Source: Pseudomonadota bacterium
GTDB lineage: Bacteria > Pseudomonadota > Alphaproteobacteria > Rhodobacterales > Rhodobacteraceae
Length of the DNA: 64,000 nt
Assembly: GCA_963205235.1 (NCBI GenBank)
Contig: CAUJIP010000073.1
Location: 1-64,000, forward strand
Reading direction: 5' to 3'
Of this stretch, positions 377-15,576 are shown in pieces. The number at the start of each line of letters is the position of its first letter. Position 1 is the first letter of the stretch. Under the pieces are notes generated by a model. That model did no database searches and was not told the DNA's origin. It saw only the letters and a program-made list of their open reading frames with translations. Made by a program: the position numbers and the translations under genes.

Positions 377-910
377 GTGCAATCGTTGAATGCGTTTCTT
401 GTCGCCCTGCGGATGATGGAATCCGGCGGCGACTATCAATCGGTGAACACGCTGAATTTTCTGGGGGCCTACCAGTTTGGCGAAGCGGCGCTGGTCGACC
501 TTGGCTATGTCCGCCAGGACAGCGACCCCTATGACAACAATTATTCGGGGGGCTGGAAGGGCAAGAACGGCATCGATTCGGCCAAGGAGTTTCTGGCCAG
601 CGAGTCGGCACAGGACAAGGCCGCTGAGGCCTGGGTCAAGTTGATGTGGCACTATATCGAGGCCGAGAACCTTGATCAGCACGCCTGGACCGAAGTTGGC
701 GGTGTCGAACTGACGCCCAGCGGCATGCTGGCGGCTTCGCATCTCATGGGAACCTATTCCCTGCAGGCCTTCATCGACTCGGACGGCAAGATCGACACCC
801 GCGACCCCTATGGCATGCCGGTTTCAACCTACATGATCCGCATGGCCAAGGTCGAAGTGCCCTTCGGCGTAAAGCCCGCTGACGCCGAGACTGGACCGGA
901 CGGGTACTGA
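377..910 (+). CDS. Lytic transglycosylase/lysozyme-fold protein
   Basis: A protein of about 177 residues that resembles the SLT/lysozyme fold. An early E-S-G-G motif (about residue 13) matches the catalytic Glu region of soluble transglycosylases, and a following G-A-Y-Q-F segment matches their G-x-x-Q motif. The likely role is cleaving peptidoglycan, but no signal peptide or transmembrane segment is visible, so the route to the periplasm is unclear. I chose the GTG at 377 because a strong AAGGAGGG lies 6 bases upstream; an in-frame ATG at 356 sits in front of that site and has none of its own. It converges on the glycosyltransferase gene with only 5 bases between stops. A phage-type endolysin is an alternative, but no phage genes are nearby. 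Fold: reasonable; substrate: inferred. Confidence 0.55.
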   Translation: MQSLNAFLVALRMMESGGDYQSVNTLNFLGAYQFGEAALVDLGYVRQDSDPYDNNYSGGWKGKNGIDSAKEFLASESAQDKAAEAWVKLMWHYIEAENLDQHAWTEVGGVELTPSGMLAASHLMGTYSLQAFIDSDGKIDTRDPYGMPVSTYMIRMAKVEVPFGVKPADAETGPDGY

Positions 911-915
911 TCGGT

Positions 916-3900
916 TCATTCAGAGGATTTGCGCCGTCCCGCCTGCAGTCGGGTGCCGATCCGGTCGATCTTGTACCACCCGGTCGGATGCCCGGTCAGG
1001 GCGCGGAACATCCCGCGGATGGCGGTGATATACAGCAGTTGCCGATAGCCAAAGCGCAGAAGCGGGATCAAGAGCAGCGTCTTCCATTCAAAGCGGCGCT
1101 CGAACCAGAAGGCGGTCAGGGTGCGCAGGACCTCGATCCCGGTCATGATGAAATAGCTGGTGAACAGAAGGATCGGCAACGCCCCGCCGGGCAGGGCCTC
1201 GCGCAGGATGATCGAATAGATCGCGGCGCCCAGAACCGAAACAAGCAGGATGTCATCCAGCAGCGCCAGCAGCAACGACACCGGGCCGAACCAGACTGAA
1301 TCGACGACGGAAAAGCCGACTGGTCGGCCCGAGGCCACCACGCCAAGGTGCTTCCAGCTGACCTGAAGCATGCCAAGCTGCCAGCGCAGCCTTTGCCGCA
1401 GAAAGGCGCGGGCGGTGACCGGGGCTTCGGTGATGGACCGGGCGCGTTCCTCGAACTTGACACGATAGCCCGCGCGATGGACAGCGACGGTCAGGTCGGC
1501 GTCCTCGGTGATCGTCTCGCCGGAGAAACCGCCACTTTCGCGCACGGCCTTGGTGCGCCAGGCCCCGACCGCGCCGGGGACGACCAGAATTCCGTCAAAG
1601 AATTCATGCGCCCGGCGCAGCACGTTCTGGGTCACCATGTATTCCTGATGCTGGAAATCGGTCAGGATGTTCACCCGGTTGCCCACCTCGACCAATCCGG
1701 CGACGGCACCAACCTTCTTGTCCCTGAAGGGCTGGACCAGCCAGCGGATCGTATCGGGCAAGAAGATCGAATCCGCATCGGCTACTACGAAGATCGGCGT
1801 GTCTATTTCCGACAGGGCCAAGTTCGCGGCATGCCATTTCCCGGCGTTTTCCTCGTGCAGCAGATGCAACCGGGGGTTTGTGGCGATCAGTTCGCGGATC
1901 ACCTCTGCGGTGCGGTCGGTCGAGCCGTCATCGACGATGTAGACGTTGAAATCCGGGTAGTCCGACTGCAGGACCGAAGCGACACAGGCGGCGATGACCT
2001 TCTCCTCGTTGAAGGCTGGGATCACGACGGCGACGGGCGGCGTAAAGCCGGGGTCGATCGCGCCATTGGGCCTCCGGATCAGCGAGAGCGCGATGTAAAG
2101 CAGCGAGAAGGCCGCCGAAATCACCAGCATCACAAAGAACAGGACCATCACCCCGTTCAAAAGGAAGTTCGCCACGGTAAAGGCGATGCTGTCACCGATA
2201 CGCTCGTCCGGCAGGCCGGTTGTGGTTGGGGGCGGCCCCTCTGTTCGGGTGGCAGCTGCGGGCGGCAGGAACTGGTATCCGTCTGTCAGAAGCCGTGTCA
2301 AAAGGTCCGGCAGGGCGGCAATCTGGTCATGTCCCGCATAGCGCAGGTCCAGGGCAATCACCTGGGTCTGGTCGAAATCGCCTTCACGCGCGATCCGGTC
2401 GGCAAAATCCTGCGTGTCGACCACCCCGAACGGGGCGTCGAAACTTGACCGAAGCGAGATCAGCCCAAGCTCCAGAAGCGCGATCTCGGCACGGAAGGCG
2501 TCATGGCTGAACTTTGGCGGCCCAGCGCCGGGGCGCAGCAGGATCAACCGCGCCGGGGTGCCGAAGTGCTGCACATGATAAAGCTGCACGAAATTCAGCT
2601 CCATCTGCGCGGTGATGCGGGATTCAGGTCGATCCGGCAGTGGCGGCAGTTGCCGCAGGCCAAGCAGATGCCCGGCAGCGACCAGCTTTTCCGCCGAACG
2701 ACTGCGTTCCAGCAGCACCGGCAGATCGGCAAAGAAGGCGGCAGTGACCTGATGCTGGGCCAGTGTCGCGATCAGGAGATCGACATCCTCGTCCAACGGC
2801 AGGCCGTCAAAGGCCAGCACAAGGCCGCCCGTCTGTTCGACCCCGCGACGCTCGGCCTGATTTGGCAGGGGCAGGGTGGCATAGCCCTCGGCCTGAATGA
2901 ACTTTCCCGCCGGGTCCAGTTTCACCCAGCGCTGGCCCATGACGGCGGGGGTAATTCCGCCAAGGGCCGGGCCGCCGGTTTCGGACAGGACCTGACCCGA
3001 AAGATCGACCGGCCCCGAAAGGCCCGAGTGATTGGGGCGACCCAGGGCATCGGGCTGCAAAAGCGACCAGACGGCAGGATCTTCATAGCCAAGCGGCCAG
3101 ATTGCTATGCCTTGGTCGGGGGGCAGGGTGGCAAGCTGGTTGTGCATCGAAGCCGCGTCCAGAAGCCAGATGTCATTGGTCTGTCGGTCGGTACCGATGA
3201 AATGCAGCAGTGTGGCCCCGGAAGCGGGGTCAAACCAGGGCGCGAGCCCGGCGCGATGGGCGCGGGCCAGCGCCTCACCATAGCTGATCCGCAGGCTTCG
3301 GCCTTTCCCGCTTTGCCAGGCTTGACCAAAGCTGCCCAGGGCCACGACAAGCTTTTTCGCCGGGATCAGGTCGCGGATGTCGCTTAGGGCAGGGTCCGCC
3401 CAATCCGGCGGTGTCGGTGCCACCAGAGGCGAAGCCGTTTCGCGGAACGCCTTGACCACGGCAATGTCCAGCCGACTGACCAGAACCGCATCGCGCCAGA
3501 ACCCGGCCTCGGGCCCCGCGATCAGGCAAAGCGTCGGAGGGGCGTGTCCGGGGCTTGTCGTCGCCCGCGCCAGCCGGGAGAAAGCCTCGCGCAGAACGGC
3601 GGGATCAAGGTCCGGATGCGCGCCAAGATCAAGGCAAAGCTCTGGTTGCGGTTGTTCCAGAAGCAGGGCCGCAAGCTGGCTGACCAGCTCGTCCAGCGCC
3701 GGACCGGGCGAAAGCAGAGCGGCCAACTCGTCCGTCCGGGTGGTCGTCGTGATCCGCGCTACCGGCAGGGCCGAACCGCCGGGCATGCCGATTTCGTTGG
3801 CAAGCTCTTGCAGCGCCAAGTTCCGTTTGGCCCAAAGTGGCACCACCGTTCCGTCCGGAGCGCCCAGCAGGAAGGCATCGGCAAGCACGCGGTCAAGCTG

Positions 3901-4242
3901 GTCGCAGCGGCTGCGCAATCCCGTCAATGCAGTGCTGTCAGCGGTGGGAAGATAGCCCAGCACCAGCCGCTTCCGCCCAGCACCCGCGAGGGGCGCGCGC
4001 TTGCAAGGCTCGGAGGCGTTTGATTGCAGGGTGACAAAGGCATCCTGCGGCCGCGCCGTGCTTTCGCTTGCCGGCGCAACCGCGGGCAGGGCCACATCGA
4101 TCAGCAGGCGGCGGCCAAGGTCCCAAAGCCAAAGCACGGTGGCAATTGCCAGCACGGCAAGCAGCACGACGACCACCTTGCCACGAATGCCGCTGCGGTC
4201 TTCGAAGACGTGGTCTGGTTCCTGTTCGGGGATCTGGCTCAC
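916..4242 (-). CDS. Membrane GT2 glycosyltransferase with degenerate GH18-like and NodB-like domains
   Basis: 1108 residues from a GTG start. Order: N-terminal membrane helix (about 23-43); a GH18-like region (about 90-440); a polysaccharide-deacetylase-like region (about 470-680); a membrane helix; a processive family-2 glycosyltransferase domain (from about 735) with D-D-G-S near 772, D-A-D near 817, T-E-D-A-D near 907 and Q-R-L-R-W near 950; then several membrane helices. This resembles trifunctional hydrolase-deacetylase-synthase proteins and PgaC/hyaluronan-synthase-like enzymes, so the predicted job is polymerising and extruding a polysaccharide. Oddly, the GH18 DxxDxDxE region reads L-D-L-G-A-H-P-D-L-D with no Glu, and the NodB T-F-D-D motif reads A-F-D-G with no His pair afterwards, so both N-terminal domains look catalytically dead. 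Last gene of a minus-strand cluster. The sugar is unknown. Confidence 0.8.
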   Translation of the reverse strand: MSQIPEQEPDHVFEDRSGIRGKVVVVLLAVLAIATVLWLWDLGRRLLIDVALPAVAPASESTARPQDAFVTLQSNASEPCKRAPLAGAGRKRLVLGYLPTADSTALTGLRSRCDQLDRVLADAFLLGAPDGTVVPLWAKRNLALQELANEIGMPGGSALPVARITTTTRTDELAALLSPGPALDELVSQLAALLLEQPQPELCLDLGAHPDLDPAVLREAFSRLARATTSPGHAPPTLCLIAGPEAGFWRDAVLVSRLDIAVVKAFRETASPLVAPTPPDWADPALSDIRDLIPAKKLVVALGSFGQAWQSGKGRSLRISYGEALARAHRAGLAPWFDPASGATLLHFIGTDRQTNDIWLLDAASMHNQLATLPPDQGIAIWPLGYEDPAVWSLLQPDALGRPNHSGLSGPVDLSGQVLSETGGPALGGITPAVMGQRWVKLDPAGKFIQAEGYATLPLPNQAERRGVEQTGGLVLAFDGLPLDEDVDLLIATLAQHQVTAAFFADLPVLLERSRSAEKLVAAGHLLGLRQLPPLPDRPESRITAQMELNFVQLYHVQHFGTPARLILLRPGAGPPKFSHDAFRAEIALLELGLISLRSSFDAPFGVVDTQDFADRIAREGDFDQTQVIALDLRYAGHDQIAALPDLLTRLLTDGYQFLPPAAATRTEGPPPTTTGLPDERIGDSIAFTVANFLLNGVMVLFFVMLVISAAFSLLYIALSLIRRPNGAIDPGFTPPVAVVIPAFNEEKVIAACVASVLQSDYPDFNVYIVDDGSTDRTAEVIRELIATNPRLHLLHEENAGKWHAANLALSEIDTPIFVVADADSIFLPDTIRWLVQPFRDKKVGAVAGLVEVGNRVNILTDFQHQEYMVTQNVLRRAHEFFDGILVVPGAVGAWRTKAVRESGGFSGETITEDADLTVAVHRAGYRVKFEERARSITEAPVTARAFLRQRLRWQLGMLQVSWKHLGVVASGRPVGFSVVDSVWFGPVSLLLALLDDILLVSVLGAAIYSIILREALPGGALPILLFTSYFIMTGIEVLRTLTAFWFERRFEWKTLLLIPLLRFGYRQLLYITAIRGMFRALTGHPTGWYKIDRIGTRLQAGRRKSSE

Positions 4243-4359
4243 GCGGGGTGGTTCTTTCCGGGATCTGGCAGGCGGATGCAGGGTGTTGGGTGGGCTGCCG
4301 ATGACAAGCTTAAGACTGCCCCGGACCGGGCGGCGACACGGGGTGCGCCAGGTTTCGCG

Positions 4360-6921
4360 TCAGCGCAGCGCATGGCCGATTGCCGTCAGGATGACGCCAT
4401 TTGTGTTCAGGTCGGTATAGTTCGGCATGGCCCGCATCGTGCTGGTGAATACCCCCACCGAAAAGCCCAGGCCCTCGATCCGGGTCTTTTCGCGGATCAC
4501 CTGCAAAAGCTGGCTGCACCAGGCATGCGACCGCAGGGCGGACCAAAGATAGGCGGACTTGGTGCTCAGAAGTTCGGCCTTCGCGCGAAACTCGGGCGTG
4601 TCATGTTCAGCCGCCCCGCCCAGACCGCGCACGACCCAAGCTGCCTCGCCCAAAGCGCCAAAGCGCAGACCCTGATAGGAAAACCACGGAGAGAAGTTCA
4701 GTGGCGCTTCGGACGCGCATTTCAGCTGCCCCGTCGTCTCGAACCAGTCAAGCTGCGCGTCAAACAGGACATCGGCGATCAGACCAGCAGACGGGTCCGG
4801 GCCAAGCTCGATCAGGTCCAGCAGGGCGGGTTCGACCCCGACCTGACCGATCCGGGCAACATCGTAAAGCTGGGCGATTTGCCGGTCGGTCTTGGTGCCC
4901 CCCTCCAGCCCGGCATAGGGAGAAAGCAGGCCATAGCCCCAAAGATCAAACCCGCGCCGGATATAGGGTGTGCAATGCGACAGTGTCGTGTCGGTCCAGC
5001 TGTCCTTCAGATGGCTGTGCGGGCGCCCCTCGGGCAGAGCCTGTGACAGATCCCAGACGGCGGGAACCATCTCGGCCGTGATGGAATCGACCAGCCCCGC
5101 AGTCACGACCGACCGCAGCGCGACAAGGAACCGGCCCACATCGCAAACGTCGAAACCCGGCGCGACTATGCTGCCGTCGTCGGTGCGAAACATGGCGGGC
5201 GGCAGGTGCAGGCCTTCGACATCGCCCAGCGGCAGGTTCTGCAGCAATAGAAGGACCCGGTCGCTGGCCTCGGACTTGTCGATGAAGGCCAGTTGATGGG
5301 CCACGCGAATGCCATGCAACTGGCTGGCCAGATCCCACATCGTCGCTTCGCGGTTGATGACCGTCGTTTGCCCGGTCTGCACCGTGCCCGCGCAAAGTCC
5401 GGTCTTGGCATCGGTGAACCGGTCGACATAGCGCCAGGCAAGCCTTGCGTCCCCGATCAGGCGGGCGCGTTCGTCCGTGTCGGGGGCCGGGGGCAGGAAG
5501 GGATCGGTCACCGCGCGCCGCCGCACCGACCAAAGCCGGGCAAGGACCGGCTCGGTTTCCACCAGGTGCCGCGCAAGCCCCGGAATGGTGTGAAAATAGG
5601 CGCGACCGGACAAGGCGGCCTCGACAAACCGGCGGATCAATTGCGCGCGGCGCACCGGTAGCAGCACATCTGCCGGGCGGATTGTGACCAGGTGATCTTC
5701 CAGCGGCGAGAGGTCCAGAACCGACTCGGGTCCGTCCGGAAGCTGGCGCAGGGCCAGGTGCAAAAGCCCATCGGGATCGACGCCCTGACGCGGCCAGACT
5801 GCCGCCGGTCCCACATGCACCGCGACCGACTGGCCCGACGGACCCACGCCGCCCCCGTTGTCGCGCAGACAATCGGGAAGCGGCAGGGGCACCGCACCGT
5901 CCCTTGCCGAAGGGGCGCAGAAGTGCACGGTTCCGGGCAACGCGCCAAAATGGTCCGCGCGCCCCGCCACCGTCAAGGGAACGCCCTGACTTGCCAATTC
6001 GCCAAGGAAGGCAAGCACGGCTGCATCCTCCTCCGGTCCCGTCCCCGGTTCGACCAGCAGCGCCACGTCAAGGGGAAGGCCCTCACCCGCGAAAAGCCGC
6101 AGCTGGGCGGGGCTGACCATGTGGATCCGGCCCGACGAAAAGGCCTGCCCCAGATGCGAGGCGATCCTTGCCGCATGCGCAGGCAGGGCCGACAGGCCCT
6201 CTGCCCCGATCCCGGCAAGCGACAGCGAAACAAGCAGATCCTCGCCCCGGTTCAAAGCCGCGAACAGGCGCTGCTCCAGATCAGGGGCGTCCATCCTGGT
6301 CCAAAGCCCGCCCTGCATGACCAACTCGCCCCGCCCTGCGACGCTCTGCAACAGGGGGCCAGTGCCCGCCCGCAAATGAGCCCGGAACCCCGCCCCGCGA
6401 AAGGCGGTGTGGTCGATGTTCGGATCCTCGCCCCGGTCGACCAGCGTGACCACCGGAAAGGACTGTTGCGCCGCCGGACCTGCGGCAAATGCCGCCAGGA
6501 CCGCCTGCCGCAACTCACCCGCCCGACGCAGCTGGAAATAGCGCTCGGGCCGGGGCAACTTGCCGATCAGCAGCGCCAGATCGAACAGCCCCGGATCGCG
6601 CAAGGCCAGCCTCGCCAGACGGTCGCAAAGCGGTTGATCTGCCGCCGCCCCCGTCAGGGCAAGAAGATCGGCTACACAGGTTACCGGCAAGCCTGCCGAC
6701 AGGAACGGCGCAATCACCGCTTCCAGCATCGCCGGATCAAGGCCGGGGCCAACCCCGTCGACCAGCAGCGTAACCTGCGTTGCATAGGCCTGCGCCGCCA
6801 CAGGCAAAGCCAGCACCCCGACCGAAACAGCCGCCGCCCCACCCCGCAACACCGCACGGCGGGTCATGCCGACCCTGTCGCCCGGATGTCCATGCCCCAA
6901 AGCGGTGCGGATCGGGGTCAT
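4360..6921 (-). CDS. Tat-exported DUF3131 protein
   Basis: 853 residues. The start at 6921 is set by a 4-base ATGA overlap with the upstream deacetylase gene; a second in-frame ATG at 6867 directly precedes a twin-arginine signal (T-R-R-A-V-L-R-G-G followed by a hydrophobic stretch ending A-Q-A), so either could be used. The C-terminal half matches DUF3131, a glycoamylase-like family found beside exopolysaccharide synthases (T-G-x-T-T-V-I-N-R-E-A-T-M-W-D-L region). The N-terminal half holds two stretches that look like eroded deacetylase folds (L-L-V-D-G-V-G-P and L-L-V-E-P-G-T-G-P) without the metal ligands. Probably a periplasmic factor that trims or binds the polymer made by the neighbouring glycosyltransferase. 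No enzymatic role is proven for DUF3131 that I know of. Confidence 0.7.
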   Translation of the reverse strand: MTPIRTALGHGHPGDRVGMTRRAVLRGGAAAVSVGVLALPVAAQAYATQVTLLVDGVGPGLDPAMLEAVIAPFLSAGLPVTCVADLLALTGAAADQPLCDRLARLALRDPGLFDLALLIGKLPRPERYFQLRRAGELRQAVLAAFAAGPAAQQSFPVVTLVDRGEDPNIDHTAFRGAGFRAHLRAGTGPLLQSVAGRGELVMQGGLWTRMDAPDLEQRLFAALNRGEDLLVSLSLAGIGAEGLSALPAHAARIASHLGQAFSSGRIHMVSPAQLRLFAGEGLPLDVALLVEPGTGPEEDAAVLAFLGELASQGVPLTVAGRADHFGALPGTVHFCAPSARDGAVPLPLPDCLRDNGGGVGPSGQSVAVHVGPAAVWPRQGVDPDGLLHLALRQLPDGPESVLDLSPLEDHLVTIRPADVLLPVRRAQLIRRFVEAALSGRAYFHTIPGLARHLVETEPVLARLWSVRRRAVTDPFLPPAPDTDERARLIGDARLAWRYVDRFTDAKTGLCAGTVQTGQTTVINREATMWDLASQLHGIRVAHQLAFIDKSEASDRVLLLLQNLPLGDVEGLHLPPAMFRTDDGSIVAPGFDVCDVGRFLVALRSVVTAGLVDSITAEMVPAVWDLSQALPEGRPHSHLKDSWTDTTLSHCTPYIRRGFDLWGYGLLSPYAGLEGGTKTDRQIAQLYDVARIGQVGVEPALLDLIELGPDPSAGLIADVLFDAQLDWFETTGQLKCASEAPLNFSPWFSYQGLRFGALGEAAWVVRGLGGAAEHDTPEFRAKAELLSTKSAYLWSALRSHAWCSQLLQVIREKTRIEGLGFSVGVFTSTMRAMPNYTDLNTNGVILTAIGHALR

Positions 6922-7679
6922 GGTGTGCCCCCGACCTCTGACAGTGCGTCGCGCACGGTTCTGACCTCTATGATCCCGCCCGCTTGCAGCAAGGCCGCGC
7001 AGCTGAAGATCGCCTCTGCCTTCGCGGCCGAGACTTCGTAATCCGACGGCTCGCCTTCGGTAATGCCGTGGAACAACAGCACCAGCCAGGTCCCGTCGCG
7101 GGCGCTTTCGACCATCTCGCCGCAAACTTCGGCCGAGGACATGCTTTCGATCACTTCCAGCCGCCCGACAAGGCGCGGGTCCAAGGCCGCACGCGGGTTA
7201 CGCCCGCCGTGGCCCTTCCAGGAAAGATGCGCCTGATAGACCCCCATGATCCGGTCCAGCGTCGCATCGGTGAAATCGCCGAAGGGCGACGAGAACGACA
7301 CCGGGGCCACACCCGTTTGCGCCAGAATGTCCGCCGCCGCGCCTTCGATCTCGTCCGCCAGGGCTGTCGGATCAAGGCCGGGCAGATGCATATGCGTCCG
7401 GCCATGCGCGCCGATTTCCCAGCCTGCGGCCTGAAAATCGCGGACCTCGTCCCAGGTCATCGTCCAGCCGCCGGGTGTCAGGCTTTCGGTTACAAGCTCG
7501 GTCGGCACGAACAGCGTTCCCGCCAGCCCATGCGCCTTGGCCAGACGAAGCCCAAAGTCGTATTGCGACCGCGAGGCATCGTCGAAAGTGATCGTGACCA
7601 GCCCCTTCGCGGTTTCGGCACAGACACCCGTCACCGCAAGGGCGAGGATCAGCGCGGCACGGCAGGCAACGGCGATCAT
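6918..7679 (-). CDS. Secreted polysaccharide deacetylase (NodB/CE4-like)
   Basis: 253 residues. The start at 7679 overlaps the stop of the OpgB-GDPD gene by ATGA and is followed by a signal peptide ending near C-A-E. The CE4 motif 1 is intact (T-I-T-F-D-D), motif 2 reads G-A-H-G-R-T-H, and an S-P-F-G-D-F segment matches motif 3. This is the only protein in the cluster with the complete acidic pair, so it is the best candidate for the active deacetylase acting on an N- or O-acetylated glycan in the periplasm. It is translationally coupled to both neighbours. Confidence 0.8.
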   Translation of the reverse strand: MIAVACRAALILALAVTGVCAETAKGLVTITFDDASRSQYDFGLRLAKAHGLAGTLFVPTELVTESLTPGGWTMTWDEVRDFQAAGWEIGAHGRTHMHLPGLDPTALADEIEGAAADILAQTGVAPVSFSSPFGDFTDATLDRIMGVYQAHLSWKGHGGRNPRAALDPRLVGRLEVIESMSSAEVCGEMVESARDGTWLVLLFHGITEGEPSDYEVSAAKAEAIFSCAALLQAGGIIEVRTVRDALSEVGGTP

Positions 7680-10600
7680 GGGGTCACCCCGACCGTCAGG
7701 CTTTGCCGCAATTGCGTGCCCTCGGGCCCGGTGAACTCGACCAGGCGCCCATCCGGCTGCACCAGACCGATGTAGGGCTGGCGAAAGCCGATGGCCGGGG
7801 CTTTGGTCAGCGGGGTTCCCGTAAAAAGCGGGTCCAGCGCGGTGCCGTCGCAAAGCGCGCTGTCATGCACGACCAGGGCCAAGGCCGTGCCATCGGACAG
7901 CGCCTGAACCAGTGCAGCGTGGAACGGCTGAGGATCGGGTGGCATGCCGCTATCCAGGGCGGCGCAGCCGTCGAATGCCGCCAGAAGGGCCGGCGGTTGG
8001 CCTGGCAGAAGCGCGATCAGGTTCAGGCCCCGGCCAAGGGTCAGGGGATCACCAACGGCACCGCGCAGGCTGCTTTCGCCCGATTCATATCCGGACGAGG
8101 TTGCCTCGAACCGGGCGACGGGGCCGGGCTTCAGATCATCGGTGAAGATCTCGGCCGCCCCGGCCTGCAGCGCGGCGGCAAGCTCGGCCTCGGTGTTCAG
8201 CGTATGCACCCAGCTTAGCACCCCGGTGGCATCGCGGGCCTTCCGGGCAAGCCCCGCGTCAAGCCGTTCGGGCGGCATGGCCAGCCCCAGGACATCCATC
8301 CGGTCGAGGGCTTTCAGCACGGCGTCCGCGTCACCCTGATACTGATACATCGACCAGATCACATCCGGAAAGCCCATGTCGCGGACGGGCCGGTACTCTT
8401 CGGGCTGATAGACCTGCGGCACGAAGCGGGGTCGCAGATCGGGATAGGTCCTGCCGATCCAGTCATAGGCATCCAGCGCGCCTGACTTCAGGTCCAGCAC
8501 GATCCGCACCTTCGTATGGTCGCGCATCCAGGCCGTCAGGGTCTCCAGCGTGCAGGGGGTGAAGCCTGCGCTTGTCGCCGCGCGGGACATGACATCGGCA
8601 AGCGGCAAGGGCCCGGCAGGGGCCACGCCGTCCAGCGCAAGGAAAGGGGCGTCCCAGTCGTGCAGGCAGACAAGCTGCCTGTCCGAGGTCCAGCTCAGGT
8701 CGATCTCGATCAGATCGAAACTGGCGGCATTGGCCTCCAGCGCCTCAAGCGAGTTGGTATAGGTCTGGTCCCCCAGGGCGCCGCCCGCATGGGCTATTCG
8801 CGGCAACCAGGCAAGCTGGCGCTGCGCGTCCCGGCGCAGGGGCCGCATGATGTTGGTCAGATCGACCCCAAGCGCGGACTGCCGTTCGCCAACGAATTCC
8901 TGTACTTCGCCGTTGCCCGCAATCAGCGCGACATAGGGCTCTTCATACCAAAGATCGCGCCATTTCGTCAGGCGCGTGCCCGCAAACAGCGGCTCTAGCC
9001 CCGGATCGACCTCATAGCAGACGACGCTGTTATGGGCGACGATGGCAAAGGCGCCATAGCCAAGGGCATGGGCGTCGATAGCCGCCTGAAAGTCGGTGAC
9101 CAGCGGCACGTTGTCGGGTTGCCGTCCGCCATAGCCGCAGGTGTCGACATGGCCAAGCTTGACCGGGGTCGCGTCGGGGTTCAGGCCCAGCAGGGTCAGC
9201 CCCCGCATCAGGCTGACCTTCTCGCCGGTTTCAGGGTTCAGCACCCAGCTTTCGCCGTTCATGTAGCCAGCCGATCGGACGGCGATCGACCCGGTCAGCC
9301 CGTTCGGCGGGGTGTACGAGACGATGTCCGACGTGGCGAACTGGCGGCGGCGGGTCAGCTCGGCCAAGAGTGTGTCCTGAAAGGCCAAGCCCCCGATCTC
9401 GCGCTGAAAAGGCGCGGCAACCGCTTCGGCGGAAAGGGGGGCACCTTCAGACAGGGCAAGCTGGCGCAGGTCCGGGCTGGAAAGGCTGCCGACAAGCGCA
9501 CAAAGCTCGGCCCCATCAGGGGCCGGGCCCGCGGCATAGATTTCGGTCTTCTGGCAGGCGTCCAGCCACAGAAACTTCTGGTCAAGGGGCAGGGTGGCGA
9601 CGATCTCGGCAAGCGTCAGATCGCTGTTCAGGTCAAAGTCGATGCCTGTAACCTCAAGCCCGTCATTCAACCGCAAGAGAAGCGGGTATTTCAACCGGCG
9701 GGAATCCAGAATGACCTCGCCTGCCGCCTGATCCACCGCGATCCCGCCGGTGATCTTGGGAAAGGACCACATCGCCGCCAGATAGCCGCGTCCGGCTGCG
9801 ATCCGGTCTTCCAGCCCCGGTTCTGCTGCGCGCAGACTTGCGGCATCGGCCAGAAGGTCGCGCCCGAAGCCAAGCGCCGGGGTCGGCGACCCGATCAGGC
9901 TTAGCAGTGTCGGTCCCAGATCCAGTGTCGTGCCGGGCTTGTCGACCAGGGCCGGGGGCAGGTCGGGGGCAAAGACCATCAGAAGATTGCGGCGTGGACC
10001 TGCGTTCAAAAGATCTTCGGCCAGGTTCGGCATGGCAAGGTGGTCCGAGGCGACGACCAGCACAGTATCCTTGAAGGCAGGGTCGCTCCGGACATGCCGG
10101 ATGAACTCGGCTGCCAGTCGGTCGGCACAGTGGACGGCGTTCAGGAACTGGTTCGTGCCATCGCCATAGGGCTGATCGGCGCAACTTTGCGACGGAAAGC
10201 CAAAGGGGTGATGGGTGTCCAGCGTCAGCATCACCAGACCGAAGGGCGCGTCCCCCTTGGCCAGCGCGTCAAGACGCTGGATCGCCTGCGGATAAAGGCT
10301 GTCATCGAACAGACCCCATTCGTTGACATAGGCCGGGTCCGTCAGCCGGGGCTCAAGCTGAGTCCGCCCTTCGACCAGATCGAAATGATGGCTGTCGTAG
10401 AAGGTGCCCTTGCCCGCAAAGCCCAGATCCGCGCCGCCGACATAGGCAAGATCATAGCCCTCGGCGTCCAGAAGGTCGCCAAGACAGGTGGCCCCCGGCA
10501 GAAACCGGTCGAACCCCGCACCCGATCCGATCAGCGGCATGCCGCACTGGCTGGCCACCATTCCCGCAATGGTCCAGCCCGCCTCTTCCACCTCGGTCAG

Positions 10601-11215
10601 GTCGGTAAAGCTGACAGCCTCGCCTTCCAGCGCCCGAAGGTTCGGCATCAGCCCCGGAAAGCGGGTTTCGTCCAGATAGCTCCGCTCGATCGACTCAAGG
10701 TACAGCAGCACGAAATTTCGCCGTGGCCCGGCGAATGCCGCGCTTTCGACCGGCACAAATCCTGCGGGCACCGGCCCCAGACTTGCCCCGGACTGGCTCA
10801 GGCCGCTTTCCACCAGCCGCCGCAGGTCGCCCACTGCCGGATTGACCGCCAGCGCCCCGGCAAGCAGGGCAATTCCCCCGAGAAGCCGCAGCCAGGCATA
10901 TCCGGCCAAAGGCGTGGCCCGGATCAGCCGATAGCTAAGAACTCCCGCCCCGACCGCCGCCAGCACCCCGACGCCCGCCGCTGCGCCAAGGCCGGAGAAT
11001 GCCCCGATCCCCGCGCCATCCAGACCGGATTGCAGATGATAGACGACCGAGGCATCGATCCCCGATCCGGTCAACCGGTCGATCGCTGCATAGGCGACCA
11101 GAAGCGCGAACTCGGTCGTCACGCACAGGGCCGCAAGCATTGCCCCCGAACGCTTGACCAGCACCCGGGACCAAAGCCCGACCGCCAGCACGCCCAAGAC
11201 CAGACTAGCCCACAT
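7676..11215 (-). CDS. OpgB-like phosphoglycerol transferase fused to a GDPD-like domain
   Basis: 1179 residues. The N-terminus has several membrane helices (to about residue 130), followed by an alkaline-phosphatase-superfamily domain like OpgB/MdoB and LtaS (L-L-Y-L-E-S-I-E-R, E-A-G-W-T-I-A-G-M-V-A-S-Q, D-T-H-H-P-F, A-S-D-H-L). Residues about 806-1037 resemble a glycerophosphodiester phosphodiesterase barrel (I-A-H-A-G-G, I-E-I-D, L-H-D), with the usual H-R replaced by H-A. Two clearly related domains of about 140 residues (about 646-790 and 1038-1179) flank it; their pattern recalls the ILEI/FAM3 domain. OpgB family members move phosphoglycerol from phosphatidylglycerol to periplasmic glucans; GDPD enzymes release glycerol 3-phosphate. 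One chain may thus add and remove, or recycle, phosphoglycerol on a glycan. The start has only a weak ribosome binding site, so the exact N-terminus is uncertain. Confidence 0.75.
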   Translation of the reverse strand: MWASLVLGVLAVGLWSRVLVKRSGAMLAALCVTTEFALLVAYAAIDRLTGSGIDASVVYHLQSGLDGAGIGAFSGLGAAAGVGVLAAVGAGVLSYRLIRATPLAGYAWLRLLGGIALLAGALAVNPAVGDLRRLVESGLSQSGASLGPVPAGFVPVESAAFAGPRRNFVLLYLESIERSYLDETRFPGLMPNLRALEGEAVSFTDLTEVEEAGWTIAGMVASQCGMPLIGSGAGFDRFLPGATCLGDLLDAEGYDLAYVGGADLGFAGKGTFYDSHHFDLVEGRTQLEPRLTDPAYVNEWGLFDDSLYPQAIQRLDALAKGDAPFGLVMLTLDTHHPFGFPSQSCADQPYGDGTNQFLNAVHCADRLAAEFIRHVRSDPAFKDTVLVVASDHLAMPNLAEDLLNAGPRRNLLMVFAPDLPPALVDKPGTTLDLGPTLLSLIGSPTPALGFGRDLLADAASLRAAEPGLEDRIAAGRGYLAAMWSFPKITGGIAVDQAAGEVILDSRRLKYPLLLRLNDGLEVTGIDFDLNSDLTLAEIVATLPLDQKFLWLDACQKTEIYAAGPAPDGAELCALVGSLSSPDLRQLALSEGAPLSAEAVAAPFQREIGGLAFQDTLLAELTRRRQFATSDIVSYTPPNGLTGSIAVRSAGYMNGESWVLNPETGEKVSLMRGLTLLGLNPDATPVKLGHVDTCGYGGRQPDNVPLVTDFQAAIDAHALGYGAFAIVAHNSVVCYEVDPGLEPLFAGTRLTKWRDLWYEEPYVALIAGNGEVQEFVGERQSALGVDLTNIMRPLRRDAQRQLAWLPRIAHAGGALGDQTYTNSLEALEANAASFDLIEIDLSWTSDRQLVCLHDWDAPFLALDGVAPAGPLPLADVMSRAATSAGFTPCTLETLTAWMRDHTKVRIVLDLKSGALDAYDWIGRTYPDLRPRFVPQVYQPEEYRPVRDMGFPDVIWSMYQYQGDADAVLKALDRMDVLGLAMPPERLDAGLARKARDATGVLSWVHTLNTEAELAAALQAGAAEIFTDDLKPGPVARFEATSSGYESGESSLRGAVGDPLTLGRGLNLIALLPGQPPALLAAFDGCAALDSGMPPDPQPFHAALVQALSDGTALALVVHDSALCDGTALDPLFTGTPLTKAPAIGFRQPYIGLVQPDGRLVEFTGPEGTQLRQSLTVGVTP

Positions 11216-11358
11216 TGCCAGCCCCGCTTGCGCTATTTTGCGCTTTCCCCGTCCTCATCCCCACAGGCCCACCCCGGCCCGAAAGTCCCGGTCCAAACGC
11301 CGGTATCTTGATCAAGACCTATGCCCTCCAAGGGGCCGGAACAAGCCTTTTGCCTGTG

Positions 11359-12147
11359 TCATCTTGGCGTATCCGGCACGACCTTCAGCGCGTCACGCGC
11401 CGTCATCAGCCGGATCACCCCCGCGTCCCGCAGGCTGTCAGCGCAGTCCAGCACCCCGTTGAACTGTTCGACCGAGTTTTCGTATTCATAGGTCGGCACA
11501 TCAACCACCCGGTGCCAGATATAGACCAGCCAATAACCCTCACGCCCCGCCCGTTCCATCTCGGCGCAGATATCGGCCACCGATTTCGTATTCGCCACCT
11601 GCTCGCGGTAGATCTGATAGTGGTCGGTCTGGTCGAACCGGTTGATCCCTTCGTTGCCCCAACCCCGGAAATGCGCCCTGTAATAGTACCGCACCCGGTC
11701 CAGCACCCGGTCGTCATAGTCGCCGTTTGGCGAGGCAAAGGTGACAGGAAACTCTCCGGTTTCCAGGTAGGCCTGGGCGGCAGGGACGCCAAGCTCCATT
11801 TCCAGAACTTCGTCGCTGGCCTGGCTAAGGGGATAGGCATGAGTATAGCCATGCGCGCCGAACTCCCAGCCATCCGCCGAAAGGCTGCGCACATCGTCCC
11901 AGCTCAGATCGCCCGATGCCTCCATGATCGGCTGGGTCTGGCCAAAAAGGGTGCCCGGAATGTCGCGTTCAAAGAAGGCGGGCATGGTGTGGACGAAGAA
12001 CTCTTTCGTCACGTTGTCGACGGTAAAGGTCACGATGCCCGGTTCGGTTTCGGCGGTGGCAGTCCCGGCCATCAAGGCAAGAACCAGCGCGGCCACCCCC
12101 GACCCGACCGGTCGTCTGCCCTGTTTCCCCGCGATCCCACCGGTCAT
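11359..12147 (-). CDS. Secreted polysaccharide deacetylase-like protein, altered metal site
   Basis: 262 residues with an N-terminal signal (hydrophobic stretch ending T-A-T-A). It aligns along its length with the deacetylase at 6918-7679: V-T-F-T-V-D-N against V-T-I-T-F-D-D, G-A-H-G-Y-T-H against G-A-H-G-R-T-H, and S-P-N-G-D-Y against S-P-F-G-D-F. The second Asp of motif 1, a metal ligand in CE4 enzymes, is Asn here, so activity may be lost or changed. A GGGGAG site precedes the ATG. It lies 15 bases after the stop of the ATPase gene, so they are probably co-transcribed. Confidence 0.7.
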   Translation of the reverse strand: MTGGIAGKQGRRPVGSGVAALVLALMAGTATAETEPGIVTFTVDNVTKEFFVHTMPAFFERDIPGTLFGQTQPIMEASGDLSWDDVRSLSADGWEFGAHGYTHAYPLSQASDEVLEMELGVPAAQAYLETGEFPVTFASPNGDYDDRVLDRVRYYYRAHFRGWGNEGINRFDQTDHYQIYREQVANTKSVADICAEMERAGREGYWLVYIWHRVVDVPTYEYENSVEQFNGVLDCADSLRDAGVIRLMTARDALKVVPDTPR

Positions 12148-12162
12148 CCCGTGTCTCCCCGA

Positions 12163-13161
12163 TTACCTGATGCGCTTGCCCTCGGCATCGAAGTAAAGCT
12201 CGCGCTTGCGGTCAAAGTCCATGAAGACAGCTTCGCCCGGCAAGAATTCCTGATGCCCGAACAGCCGGACCGTCACCGGCCCAAGATGGTCTGTCCGCAG
12301 GATCAGGTTGGTTTCGCTGCCCAGCGTCTCGACATGGTCGACCCAGCCCTGTACCTCGCCTGCCGTTCGGCCAAGGCCGATGTGTTCGGGTCGCGCCCCG
12401 ACGACATGCCCCGGACGGCCAAGCAAGGCCGACTTCAGGAAGTTCATCTTGGGCGACCCGATGAACCCCGCGACGAAGACATTCACCGGATCGTGGTAGA
12501 CATCCATCGGCGGTCCGCTTTGTTCGATCCGGCCTTCGTTCATCACGACGATATGGTCGGCCAGCGTCATCGCCTCGACCTGATCATGCGTGACATAGAT
12601 CGTCGTCGTGCCCAACCGGCGATGCAGGGCTGCCATCTCGATACGCATGTGGACGCGCAGCGCGGCATCAAGGTTCGACAGCGGCTCGTCAAACAAAAAC
12701 AGCTTCGGCTTGCGCGAGATTGCCCGGCCAATCGCCACCCGCTGCCGTTCACCACCCGAAAGCTCTTGCGGCAACCGGTTCAGAAGCGGCGTCAGCCCCA
12801 GAATTCCGGCAACCCGCTCGACCTCTCTGCGCGCCTCGGTCCGCGACTGTCCGGCTTGCCGCAACCCGATGCCAAGATTGCCCGCGACCGACAGATGCGG
12901 GTAAAGCGCATAGCTTTGAAACACCATGGCAATATCGCGGGCCGAGGGGGGAACTCCAGTCAGATCCCGCCCGCCCAGCTGGACCGTCCCGCTGTCCGGG
13001 GCCAGCAATCCGGCGATGATTCGGAGCAGCACCGACTTGCCACAGCCCGAAGGCCCGACGAGCGCCCAGAACTCTCCAGCGCCGACTGCAAGATCAATCC
13101 CATGCAGGACTTCATGCCCGTCGAAAGCCTTGGACACTGCGGTAATGTTCAGACTGTCCAT
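12163..13161 (-). CDS. Orphan UgpC/MalK-type ABC ATPase
   Basis: 332 residues: an ABC ATPase domain (Walker A G-P-S-G-C-G-K-S, signature L-S-G-G-E-R-Q-R, Walker B L-F-L-F-D-E-P, switch His in Y-V-T-H-D) followed by a TOBE-type regulatory domain. This is the CUT1 sugar/glycerol-3-phosphate importer class. No permease or binding-protein gene is adjacent; the next genes are glycan-modification enzymes. It could energise a CUT1 permease encoded elsewhere, perhaps recovering glycerol 3-phosphate released by the GDPD domain of its neighbour. That link is inference. First gene of the minus-strand cluster. Confidence 0.8.
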   Translation of the reverse strand: MDSLNITAVSKAFDGHEVLHGIDLAVGAGEFWALVGPSGCGKSVLLRIIAGLLAPDSGTVQLGGRDLTGVPPSARDIAMVFQSYALYPHLSVAGNLGIGLRQAGQSRTEARREVERVAGILGLTPLLNRLPQELSGGERQRVAIGRAISRKPKLFLFDEPLSNLDAALRVHMRIEMAALHRRLGTTTIYVTHDQVEAMTLADHIVVMNEGRIEQSGPPMDVYHDPVNVFVAGFIGSPKMNFLKSALLGRPGHVVGARPEHIGLGRTAGEVQGWVDHVETLGSETNLILRTDHLGPVTVRLFGHQEFLPGEAVFMDFDRKRELYFDAEGKRIR

Positions 13162-13504: not shown

Positions 13505-13783
13505 ATGGCGAAGATCAATCAGAACTCACCGGAAGATACTTCCCTCAATGATGCTGGACAGGAAATTGCCAAGGAACGGCAGGATTTCAGGGCCGTTCTC
13601 CCAGCGCTCGTTGGGTCCCTGCAGCGCTCCGGTTCAATTGGCGCCGAAGAGTTGACGGGTCGTGTGAAGGACATGGTCGACGCTCTGTGGCGGCACCTTC
13701 AGGCGAATGTGGGTACCCACCTTTCGGCTTGGCCGGTTGGCGCTCGTGCGACCGGCCAGCGGTCGGACGCGTCGGCCCGCTGA
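13505..13783 (+). CDS. Small protein of unknown function
   Basis: 92 residues from an ATG preceded by GGAG; an upstream extension of the same frame runs through the tRNA remnant and the FNR-like box and is not credible as coding. The product is polar with amphipathic helical stretches (about 20-70) and no signal peptide or membrane helix. I do not recognise a family. It is the first gene after the FNR-like box and lies 20 bases before the LOG-FtsH gene, suggesting one operon. Confidence 0.5.
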   Translation: MAKINQNSPEDTSLNDAGQEIAKERQDFRAVLPALVGSLQRSGSIGAEELTGRVKDMVDALWRHLQANVGTHLSAWPVGARATGQRSDASAR

Positions 13784-13803
13784 ACAGGAGGCTCGGGCAA
13801 GAG

Positions 13804-15576
13804 ATGACCCACAAACCTAGATCAAGGGCGGAAAAGCCCGATCCGGCACATCCGACCCGCAGGGACCAGCCCTTGCCCTGGACCGATCCGAAACCGGTCA
13901 ACGACGATCCAAGGTCCTCGGAGCTGGTGGCTGCGATCCTGAACAGCCCGGAATATCGCGAGGCGGACCGGGACACCGACTTTCTGGGCAGCGACGCGGC
14001 TCGCGGTATCCGGCTGCAGTTGGACTTCCAGAAATGCGAGTCGTTGCTTCAGGCGCATGGCATCCGGCATTCCATCGTCGTCTTCGGCAGCACGCGGGTG
14101 GTCGAACCCCGGGCCGCAGCGCGCGAGGTAGAGGCGCTGGAGGCCGCTGGCGCAAGCGCCGCTGACAACCCCGCCTTGGAACAGCGCCTGCGCATCGCCC
14201 GCCGCGTTCAGGAGAAAAGCCGCTTTTATACGATCGCCCGCGATTTCGGACGCCTCGTCGGCCGCGCCGACGCCCTTCCTGAACGACCGCGACCGTTATG
14301 GCCGCCTGGGTGCCCGCATCCCGAAGGGCATCCTGCTGGTCGGCCCCCCGGCACGGGCAAGACGCTTCTGGCCCGCGCCATCGCGGGTGAGGCGAAAGTG
14401 CCCTTCTTCTCGATCTCGGGGTCGGAATTCGTCGAGATGTTCGTCGGCGTCGGCGCCGCGCGGGTCCGCGATCTGTTCGAACAGGCCCGCAAGGCCGCGC
14501 CCTGCATCATCTTCATCGACGAGCTGGACGCGCTCGGCCGCGCCCGCACGGGCATTTCCGGCTTTGGCGGCAATGACGAGAAAGAGCAGACGCTGAACCA
14601 ACTGCTGGCCGAATTGGACGGATTCGACCCCGCCGTCGGCATCGTGCTGCTGGCCGCGACCAACCGGCCTGAAATCCTTGATCCCGCCCTTCTGCGGGCG
14701 GGCCGCTTCGACCGGCAGATCGTGGTGGACCGCCCCGACAAGAACGGGCGCGAACAGATCCTTCGCGTCCACATGCGCAAGATCAAGGCCGACCCCGACC
14801 TGCAACTGGACGAGATCGCGGGCCTGACCACGGGCTTTACCAAGGCAGATCTTGCCAACCTGGTGAACGAAGCGGCGATCGTCGCCACCCGCCGGGGGGC
14901 TGCCAGCGTTTCGGCGGCAGACTTCACCGCAGCCGTCGAACGCATCGTCGCGGGGGCCGAGCGCAAGACCCGGATCATGAACCCCGACGAACGCGCCCGT
15001 GTGGCGCATCACGAAATGGGCCACGCGCTTGCCGCCGCGTCCATTCCCGGGATGGACCCGGTGCAGAAGGTCACGATCATCCCGCGCTCGGTTGGGGCGC
15101 TTGGCTTCACCATGCAGCGCCCGACCGAGGATCGCTTCCTGATCACCCTTTCCGAACTGAAGGACCGGATGGTCGTCCTGCTGGCCGGTCGCGCCGCCGA
15201 GTCCATCGTCTTCGGCGAAGTCTCGACGGGTGCGTCCGACGATCTGGCCAAGGTGACGGACATCGCCCGGGAATGCGTGACGCGCTATGGAATGCCCGAC
15301 CCCATCGGCAATGTCGTCCTGGAAGAGCGGCAGTTGCGCTTTCTGCGCGACAGCCCCCTGCAGGGCCAGTCACGGGATTACTCGGAAGCCACCTTGCGCG
15401 AGGTCGATCTTGCCGTGCGCGCCCTGGTGGCCGAGGCCTATGACCGCGCCAAGGCGATCCTGGCCGCGCGCAGGGCCGACCTCGACGCCGGCGCTGCGCT
15501 GCTTTTGCAACGCGAAAGCCTGACACCGGATGATTTCGCGCCTCTGCGCCGGACGGACCGGAACCCCCATGGCTGA
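13804..15576 (+). CDS. LOG-family N-terminus fused to truncated FtsH-like AAA protease
   Basis: A continuous 590-codon frame joining two families. Residues 1 to about 150 match the N-terminus of LOG-type nucleotide-binding proteins ([16 protein letters not shown]), cut off before the usual G-G-G-P-G-I-M motif. From about residue 178 it is FtsH: P-P-G-T-G-K-T, Walker [10 protein letters not shown], and zinc site H-E-M-G-H. FtsH's membrane segments are missing. The joint is odd: bases 14276-14340 encode good FtsH sequence ([14 protein letters not shown]) in a different frame, and a run of only six C at 14344-14349 returns the reading to this frame, changing the first Gly of Walker A to Arg. A fusion by deletion plus a one-base loss, or a sequencing error, would explain this. 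ATG has AGGAGG upstream. Possibly a pseudogene. Confidence 0.65.

Follow-up and report, generated by a model that had tools for sequence, protein, structure and literature searches.

Which product is made by a cluster of genes that encodes, side by side, a phosphoglycerol transferase, a putative phosphodiesterase, deacetylases and a polymer-forming glycosyltransferase? The question is raised by a 64,000-nucleotide stretch of an alphaproteobacterial genome (contig CAUJIP010000073.1, positions 1–64,000; hereafter the window), in which six genes, all on the minus strand, were confirmed to lie at positions 916–13161, as a first-pass annotation made from the sequence alone had described. The best explanation, to which we give an even chance, is that the six genes serve to synthesise and modify a β-glycan, secreted to the periplasm or the surface, that acts in the manner of an osmoregulated periplasmic glucan (OPG).

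The first gene encodes an ATP-binding cassette (ABC) ATPase of the UgpC/MalK-like type, with a TOBE_2 domain and a short C-terminus according to Pfam and NCBIfam (13161–12163). It is followed by NodB-1 (12147–11359), a CE4 protein with a signal-like N-terminus in which D-N replaces the D-D metal pair and HxxxH is retained, and by OpgB-GDPD (11215–7676), a protein of 1179 residues with four hydrophobic segments and an OpgB phosphoglycerol transferase core at residues ~1–570. NodB-2 (7679–6918) is a second CE4 protein with a signal-like N-terminus, with D-D and HxxxH intact; the DUF3131 protein (6921–4360) carries a Tat-like signal and has an alternative Tat-like start at 6867; and the GT2 synthase (4242–916) combines GH18, CE4 and processive-type GT2 domains. 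The gaps are 15 bases between the ATPase and NodB-1, 143 between NodB-1 and OpgB-GDPD, and 117 between the DUF3131 and GT2 genes. OpgB-GDPD and NodB-2 overlap by ATGA, as do NodB-2 and the DUF3131 gene if the latter starts at 6921 (with start 6867, 50 bases separate them). The three tight junctions first reported, two ATGA overlaps and one 15-base gap, are thus present, the second overlap on condition of start 6921. Pfam and NCBIfam also uphold the domain names OpgB, GDPD (weakly), CE4, DUF3131, GT2 and UgpC/MalK-like.

In the mechanism proposed here, the membrane GT2 would polymerise and export the chain, probably with an N-acetylated sugar, and the DUF3131 protein, which has a Tat-like signal, would trim or transglycosylate it. 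The NodB proteins would de-N-acetylate the glycan, replacing the lost CE4 activity of the synthase, OpgB would transfer phosphoglycerol to it from phosphatidylglycerol, and the tethered GDPD would remove or remodel that group. A pair of repeated domains around GDPD, the twin domains, would perhaps hold the glycan.

Conservation of the cluster in Tabrizicola

The genome that contains the window (3.79 Mb, 97.6% complete) belongs to a sample of 32 Tabrizicola genomes. OpgB-GDPD matches were obtained in 14 of them; eight are partial (OpgB core or GDPD) and were excluded, which leaves six genomes with a full-length gene, the window included, the copies outside it being 65–69% identical to that of the window. 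All six genes sit inside this cluster, and in all six OpgB-GDPD lies between NodB-1 and NodB-2. The shared order is ATPase, NodB-1, (NodB-1b), OpgB-GDPD, NodB-2, DUF3131, synthase and a convergent transglycosylase-like gene; the extra NodB-1b is found in three clusters, and the domains are 54–87% identical across the six. The four-base overlap of OpgB-GDPD with NodB-2 recurs in four clusters (window, L063, L064 and L065), with ambiguous starts in L061 and L066. A long form of DUF3131 is present in nine of the 32 genomes, and all six OpgB-GDPD genomes are among these nine (hypergeometric P = 9e-5, for genomes that are related and hence not independent).

The ratio of nonsynonymous to synonymous substitution rates (dN/dS), calculated for one close pair (L063/L064) with NodB-1b taken in and NodB-1 left out, comes to 0.10 in the GT2 domain. 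Every other gene or domain in the test falls within 0.11–0.43, the dead CE4 (0.27), the dead GH18 (0.31) and GDPD (0.24) included. Purifying selection therefore acts across the genes and domains tested. It could be argued that the genes came together by chance, given that neither UgpC-like ATPases nor CE4 proteins are rare (four PF01522 places exist in the window genome) and that one cluster has no ATPase. The same order in six genomes at such identities, the purifying selection and the failure to find a full-length OpgB-GDPD anywhere but in this cluster make this explanation close to negligible.

The C-terminal half of OpgB-GDPD has no match in 72,556 plasmids, and the five OpgB-GDPD loci found in contigs of GTDB species, by a pattern scan whose reach is limited to close relatives, are those of the other five Tabrizicola genomes (L063 = L070, L064 = L069, L061/L062 = L068, L066 = L071 and L065 = L072, each counted once). 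The conserved core is GT2 plus DUF3131, which is older and more widespread; OpgB-GDPD seems to have joined it late, in a single lineage of Tabrizicola. The first-pass annotation had named rare co-occurrence across genomes as a sign of a chance grouping: the full set was found in one genus only, and it is the GT2–DUF3131 core that recurs widely. The deacetylases, the phosphoglycerol transferase and GDPD do form a single conserved cluster, as it had supposed.

The usual OPG enzymes

Searches for OpgG (PF04349) gave nothing in five of the six OpgB-GDPD genomes, that of the window among them, and the same count holds for OpgC; PF10091, the cyclic-glucan-synthase domain, was found in none of them; OpgH was not searched for alone. 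With OpgG not found in five and PF10091 in none, most OpgB-GDPD genomes seem to be without a known OPG backbone enzyme. An alternative is that OpgB-GDPD decorates a classical OPG, the product of OpgG/OpgH or of a cyclic glucan synthase encoded elsewhere in the genome. OPG is the known substrate of OpgB, and one genome, G161, has OpgG and OpgC; the negative results above, in the case of the window for an assembly of the stated completeness, contradict it for five of the six genomes and render this alternative very improbable.

A second association between OPG-decorating enzymes and the core comes from G121, which belongs to another genus of the same family and has two OpgC genes. One lies 2 kb from OpgG; the other (L042 3521–4756; PF10129, E 1e-86) is divergent from the core synthase at a distance of ~0.2 kb. 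The other six of the seven OpgC genes, detected in 21 chosen genomes, lie within ~2 kb of OpgG. Such enzymes are hence found beside the core in two separate lineages, with one case each (OpgB-GDPD in Tabrizicola and OpgC in G121). The idea that the core and the classical OPG pathway are mutually exclusive was considered and is ruled out by the distribution of OpgG, which is found in 6 of 11 core-bearing genomes of the family and in 69 of 149 overall; in the OpgB-bearing subset the count is one of six.

The synthase and its DUF3131 partner

DUF3131 matches occur in 34 of 149 genomes of the Rhodobacteraceae. The long form is present in 11, the window included, and G126 has two copies, which gives 12 loci; another five come from the other OpgB genomes, three from the genus and two from G517 and G447, for a total of 22. 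The count of long DUF3131 leaves out short-type frames of ~435–715 residues, the broken G123 copy, and frames of ~1,600–3,000 residues (mostly ~2,800) that match in part only. Some of the excluded frames have features of their own: short-type DUF3131 proteins are often paired ~5 kb apart (for instance in G127:C6, G015:C12, G007:C34 and G097:C11), and six genomes of the genus have one frame of ~2,800 residues with partial DUF3131 and PF10091 matches, as expected of a cyclic glucan synthase.

At all 22 loci read, long DUF3131 adjoins a GH18-CE4-GT2 synthase. DUF3131 matches were also obtained on 23 plasmids, and on all three that were opened (Sulfitobacter, Limimaricola and Mesorhizobium) a glycosyltransferase, so named by annotation alone, is adjacent, with a four-base overlap of the two genes in two of the three. 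A regular-expression scan detects a twin-arginine signal in 18 of the 22 DUF3131 proteins.

In the window synthase, GH18 (~4065–2878, minus strand) and CE4 (~2877–2158, minus) are dead, both being without catalytic residues as the first-pass annotation had read them, and the processive-type GT2 (~2157–919, minus) has DxD, ED and QxxRW motifs; the motif definitions and names used for scoring CE4, GH18 and GT2 are those that we take to be standard. Pfam detects neither GH18 nor CE4 in the single protein. A 15-sequence profile searched against the PDB reveals both: CE4 through chitin and peptidoglycan deacetylases (best E 3.8e-46), and GH18 through the spore cortex-lytic type (best E 1.2e-23). 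The GH18 catalytic motif is absent in 20 of 20 aligned synthases (L134 and L135 lie outside this set), and the domain looks like a pseudoenzyme, judging by these alignments.

The best NCBIfam match of the GT2 domain is PgaC_IcaA, at 171 bits. This resemblance, and a GH18 plus CE4 make-up reminiscent of PgaB, would suit an ordinary biofilm exopolysaccharide like poly-N-acetylglucosamine (PNAG), on which phosphoglycerol would be a minor tuning of charge. The score, however, is far under the PgaC cut-off of 422, the constant partner DUF3131 is nearer to glucan enzymes (weakly), and none of the six genes encodes a PgaA-like outer-membrane protein, one for which the flanks and the genome were not searched. 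A PNAG-like product is accordingly rated as rather unlikely.

The DUF3131 domain itself (4363..5457, minus strand; Pfam E 9.8e-44) gives weak matches throughout in a PDB profile search: 8wy1 ('Glycosyltransferase 36') at E 0.0015, a putative glucoamylase at E 0.25 and NdvB/cyclic glucan synthase at E 0.37. The first is a structure that we take to be the GH189 domain of cyclic glucan synthase. A review describes GH189, GH144 and GH162 as one superfamily of (α/α)6 folds (PMC11842490). DUF3131 may be distantly related to the GH189/GH144 (α/α)6 group. The predicted model of the protein has a mean predicted local distance difference test (pLDDT) value of 51.6, with residues 650–835 under 50. Foldseek matches to this low-confidence model are weak, with ArnD first (E 6.6e-4), two other deacetylases, and many KDO8P synthases and other proteins; as a lead only, the N-terminal half may be a degenerate deacetylase.

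Deacetylases and the loss of CE4 in the synthase

NodB-2 reaches 66 bits against the Pfam CE4 cut-off of 23.1 and is far below the NCBIfam HfsH cut-off (58.6 vs 400). NodB-1 is also over the Pfam cut-off, at 47 bits, but without the D-D metal pair; D-N is found in all seven NodB-1 proteins (six from Tabrizicola plus L038), in agreement with the altered metal site first attributed to one NodB. The dead CE4 first noticed in the synthase holds for the window protein and is confined to one clade: CE4 motifs are intact in 13 of 22 synthases and lost in nine, and these nine form a single clade with support 100/99 in a tree of the GT2 domain with 22 rows. Relatives of NodB-1 or NodB-2 lie near seven of the nine dead-CE4 loci and near one of the 13 intact-CE4 loci. 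At L038, NodB-1 and NodB-2 are fused as one protein of 522 residues, so that OpgB-GDPD of Tabrizicola lies between the counterparts of one L038 gene.

The dead-CE4 loci share a further gene. A transglycosylase-like gene is found beside the synthase at all nine, and in the window it is convergent to the synthase (377..910, plus strand; a weak Pfam match, E 0.015); around the 13 loci with an intact CE4, tblastn detected no counterpart in the sequence that was read. A secreted-looking protein of ~200 residues is found near the core at five intact-CE4 loci (L102 6125–6763, L103 1639–2235, L040 10772–11149, L041 15429–16052 and L042 2711–3313). It has no Pfam match in the three cases tested, and its sequence (YxTGYxxWDNTPPGSAxIAxPV...) is by eye like a 3D/double-psi barrel. 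The dead-CE4 clade has the transglycosylase-like gene in its place. G126 holds both versions of the core, the intact-CE4 one at L037 and the dead-CE4 one at L038, and three Tabrizicola genomes without OpgB-GDPD carry the intact-CE4 core, which suggests horizontal exchange.

The OpgB-GDPD protein and its twin domain

The OpgB core scores 334 bits with PRK03776, below the NCBIfam OpgB equivalog cut-off of 574. It has a catalytic domain of the sulfatase/LtaS type (Pfam Sulfatase, E 2.2e-23), and it matches the structure of VP1736 (E 7.9e-29) and those of the LtaS family; to judge from these matches, this is a genuine, though divergent, OpgB core. The GDPD domain (8123..8803, minus strand; ~residues 805–1031) has a Pfam score equal to its cut-off, 23.6. 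H809, E837, D839 and H852, presumably its catalytic residues, are invariant in all six proteins, and Foldseek recovers the GDPD fold (E 5e-7) on a predicted model of mean pLDDT 64; with the whole C-terminal model, the top 50 matches are mostly GDPDs.

On either side of GDPD lies one copy of a repeated domain that is undescribed, copy 1 at 8840..9292 (minus strand; residues 642–792) and copy 2 at 7679..8122 (minus; residues 1032–1179), which are 36% identical to each other (E 2e-19). No convincing relative of this twin domain appeared in the Pfam or PDB profile searches, and an ILEI/FAM3 fold, considered from a likeness seen by eye, is unsupported by either. Among 390 genomes of the order, the domain occurs in five: three Tabrizicola, G517 and G447. 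The last two have an OpgB with a single copy and without GDPD, and both hold the core; all eight genomes with the twin domain also carry long DUF3131. A likely history, as read from the domain arrangement, is that OpgB acquired the domain, which was then duplicated with GDPD placed between the copies.

Two observations on individual genes belong here. In G447 the OpgB frame (L123 273–2669) seemingly holds an in-frame stop and the synthase (L135 4400–7761) is in two frames, while the DUF3131 gene is whole, which may reflect decay or sequencing error. The window genome also encodes a second, distant OpgB/LtaS-like protein (L067 3705–5321, G000:C123), of ~30% identity, among unrelated-looking genes.

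Which acceptor?

Several points weigh against an OPG-like glycan as the product and the acceptor. We infer the acceptor from linkage and not from chemistry, and the OpgB core, given its distance from the equivalog cut-off, could have another one. OpgG accompanies the full cluster in G161, where OpgC is found as well, and it is present in G121; its frequency among core-bearing genomes, given above, is no lower than in the family. The link between DUF3131 and GH189 is weak at E 0.0015. As for the transfer of deacetylation to the NodB proteins, L104 has an intact CE4 together with a NodB (of the NodB-2 type only), no NodB lies close to L043 or L135, both dead-CE4 loci, and none was found in the genome of L043, G129, in a genome search that covered 19 genomes, with that of L135 (G447) outside them; the dead clade being single, the hand-over is at most one event and not repeated evidence.

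A rival proposal is that the substrate of OpgB-GDPD is something else, be it a lipid, a protein or a chain of glycerol phosphate, and that its glycan-gene neighbourhood means shared regulation only. The matches to LtaS-family structures and the subthreshold OpgB score agree with it, and so does the position of the single-twin-domain OpgB of G517 and G447, which lies away from the core. The constant place of OpgB-GDPD between NodB-1 and NodB-2, with the four-base overlap in four genomes, and the presence of long DUF3131 in every twin-domain genome argue against it, and we regard it as unlikely, if less so than a PNAG-like product. The backbone of the OPG-like glycan may be a hexosamine polymer, a glucan or a mixed chain: the CE4 partners suggest an N-acetylated sugar, and a glucan is suggested by OpgB, OpgC and the GH189 lead.

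The ABC ATPase and the fate of phosphoglycerol

The earlier idea of one phosphoglycerol-glycan system is borne out as far as the genes are co-conserved and the GT2 could make a polymer; the recycling of glycerol 3-phosphate attached to it is not. Phosphoglycerol derived from phosphatidylglycerol is the sn-1 enantiomer. GDPDs of the GlpQ type are strictly specific for sn-3 phosphodiesters (PMC7086022). It follows that the fused GDPD must differ in stereochemistry, cut the other ester or have another substrate, and the proposed scheme of glycerol 3-phosphate uptake does not follow. The role first given to the ATPase, that of helping to regain glycerol 3-phosphate, is not supported, in view of this mismatch, of the lack of evident CUT1 partners nearby and of the one cluster in six without an ATPase.

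The ATPase is below the NCBIfam UgpC cut-off (396 bits vs 432). It is present in five of the six clusters, with 77–79% identity and the same place in four of the five other clusters, and none was found within ~15 kb upstream of the T. soli cluster (L066, L108). By eye, no CUT1 permease or binding-protein gene lies beside it in the window; the genome itself was not searched for UgpABE. ABC matches at L037, L102 and L104 were considered as the cluster ATPase and kept out of the count, as they are other UgpC-like ATPases near other cores, with permease-like genes close by in L037 and L102 (by eye). Upstream of the cluster, divergent neighbours on the plus strand resemble, by eye, an FtsH-like AAA protease (13687–15576) and a P-type cation ATPase (15530–18106).

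Comparison with known systems and significance

The cluster shares with the OPG pathway (OpgG/OpgH with OpgB/OpgC, in Escherichia coli and rhodobacters) an OpgB-type transferase, a membrane GT2, the OpgC beside the G121 core and a partner enzyme with a signal of the Tat type, as in OpgD. It differs in that its GT2 is PgaC/NodC-like and stands behind GH18-CE4, DUF3131 takes the place of OpgG (itself not found in five of six genomes), and CE4 deacetylases and a GDPD fused to OpgB are present. Cyclic β-1,2-glucans can carry phosphoglycerol, and DUF3131 is maybe a distant (weak) GH189 relative, which brings the cluster near cyclic β-1,2-glucan synthase (NdvB/CGS); unlike that enzyme, whose architecture we take to include GT84 and GH94, the cluster proteins are separate, shorter and without these domains, deacetylases are present, and PF10091 was not found in the six cluster genomes. 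With the PNAG system (PgaC and PgaB), the cluster has in common a GT2 accompanied by CE4 and a glycoside-hydrolase-type domain; in the cluster all three are in one chain and both extra domains are dead, and DUF3131 and OpgB are, to our knowledge, not part of the PNAG system.

The nearest union of activities is that of group A Streptococcus, where GacH adds glycerol phosphate to the glycan and PplD de-N-acetylates its linkage unit (PMC8807736). Both reactions thus occur on one secreted glycan, as proposed here, on a rhamnose backbone that is wall-anchored in a Gram-positive organism, and no GDPD fusion was seen there (PMC8807736). The first-pass statement that no described pathway unites phosphoglycerol transfer, its removal and deacetylation was consequently too strong for the combination of glycerol phosphate transfer and de-N-acetylation. 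In the open-licence literature, no described system of the make-up of the cluster was found, nor any product assigned to long DUF3131 plus synthase.

A wider proposal, more doubtful than the one on the cluster itself but still to be considered, is that Alphaproteobacteria have a second OPG-like route, in which a GH18-CE4-GT2 synthase and a GH189-related DUF3131 protein would make the backbone, OPG decorators would have been recruited at least two times, deacetylation would have moved to NodB proteins in one clade, and OpgB would have gained a tethered GDPD eraser. The linkage of DUF3131 and its synthase to OPG substituent enzymes gives this pair a testable product, and the pair may show what replaces OPG in rhodobacters without opgG. 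If true, a single polypeptide that both writes and erases phosphoglycerol would represent a novel means of adjusting envelope charge.

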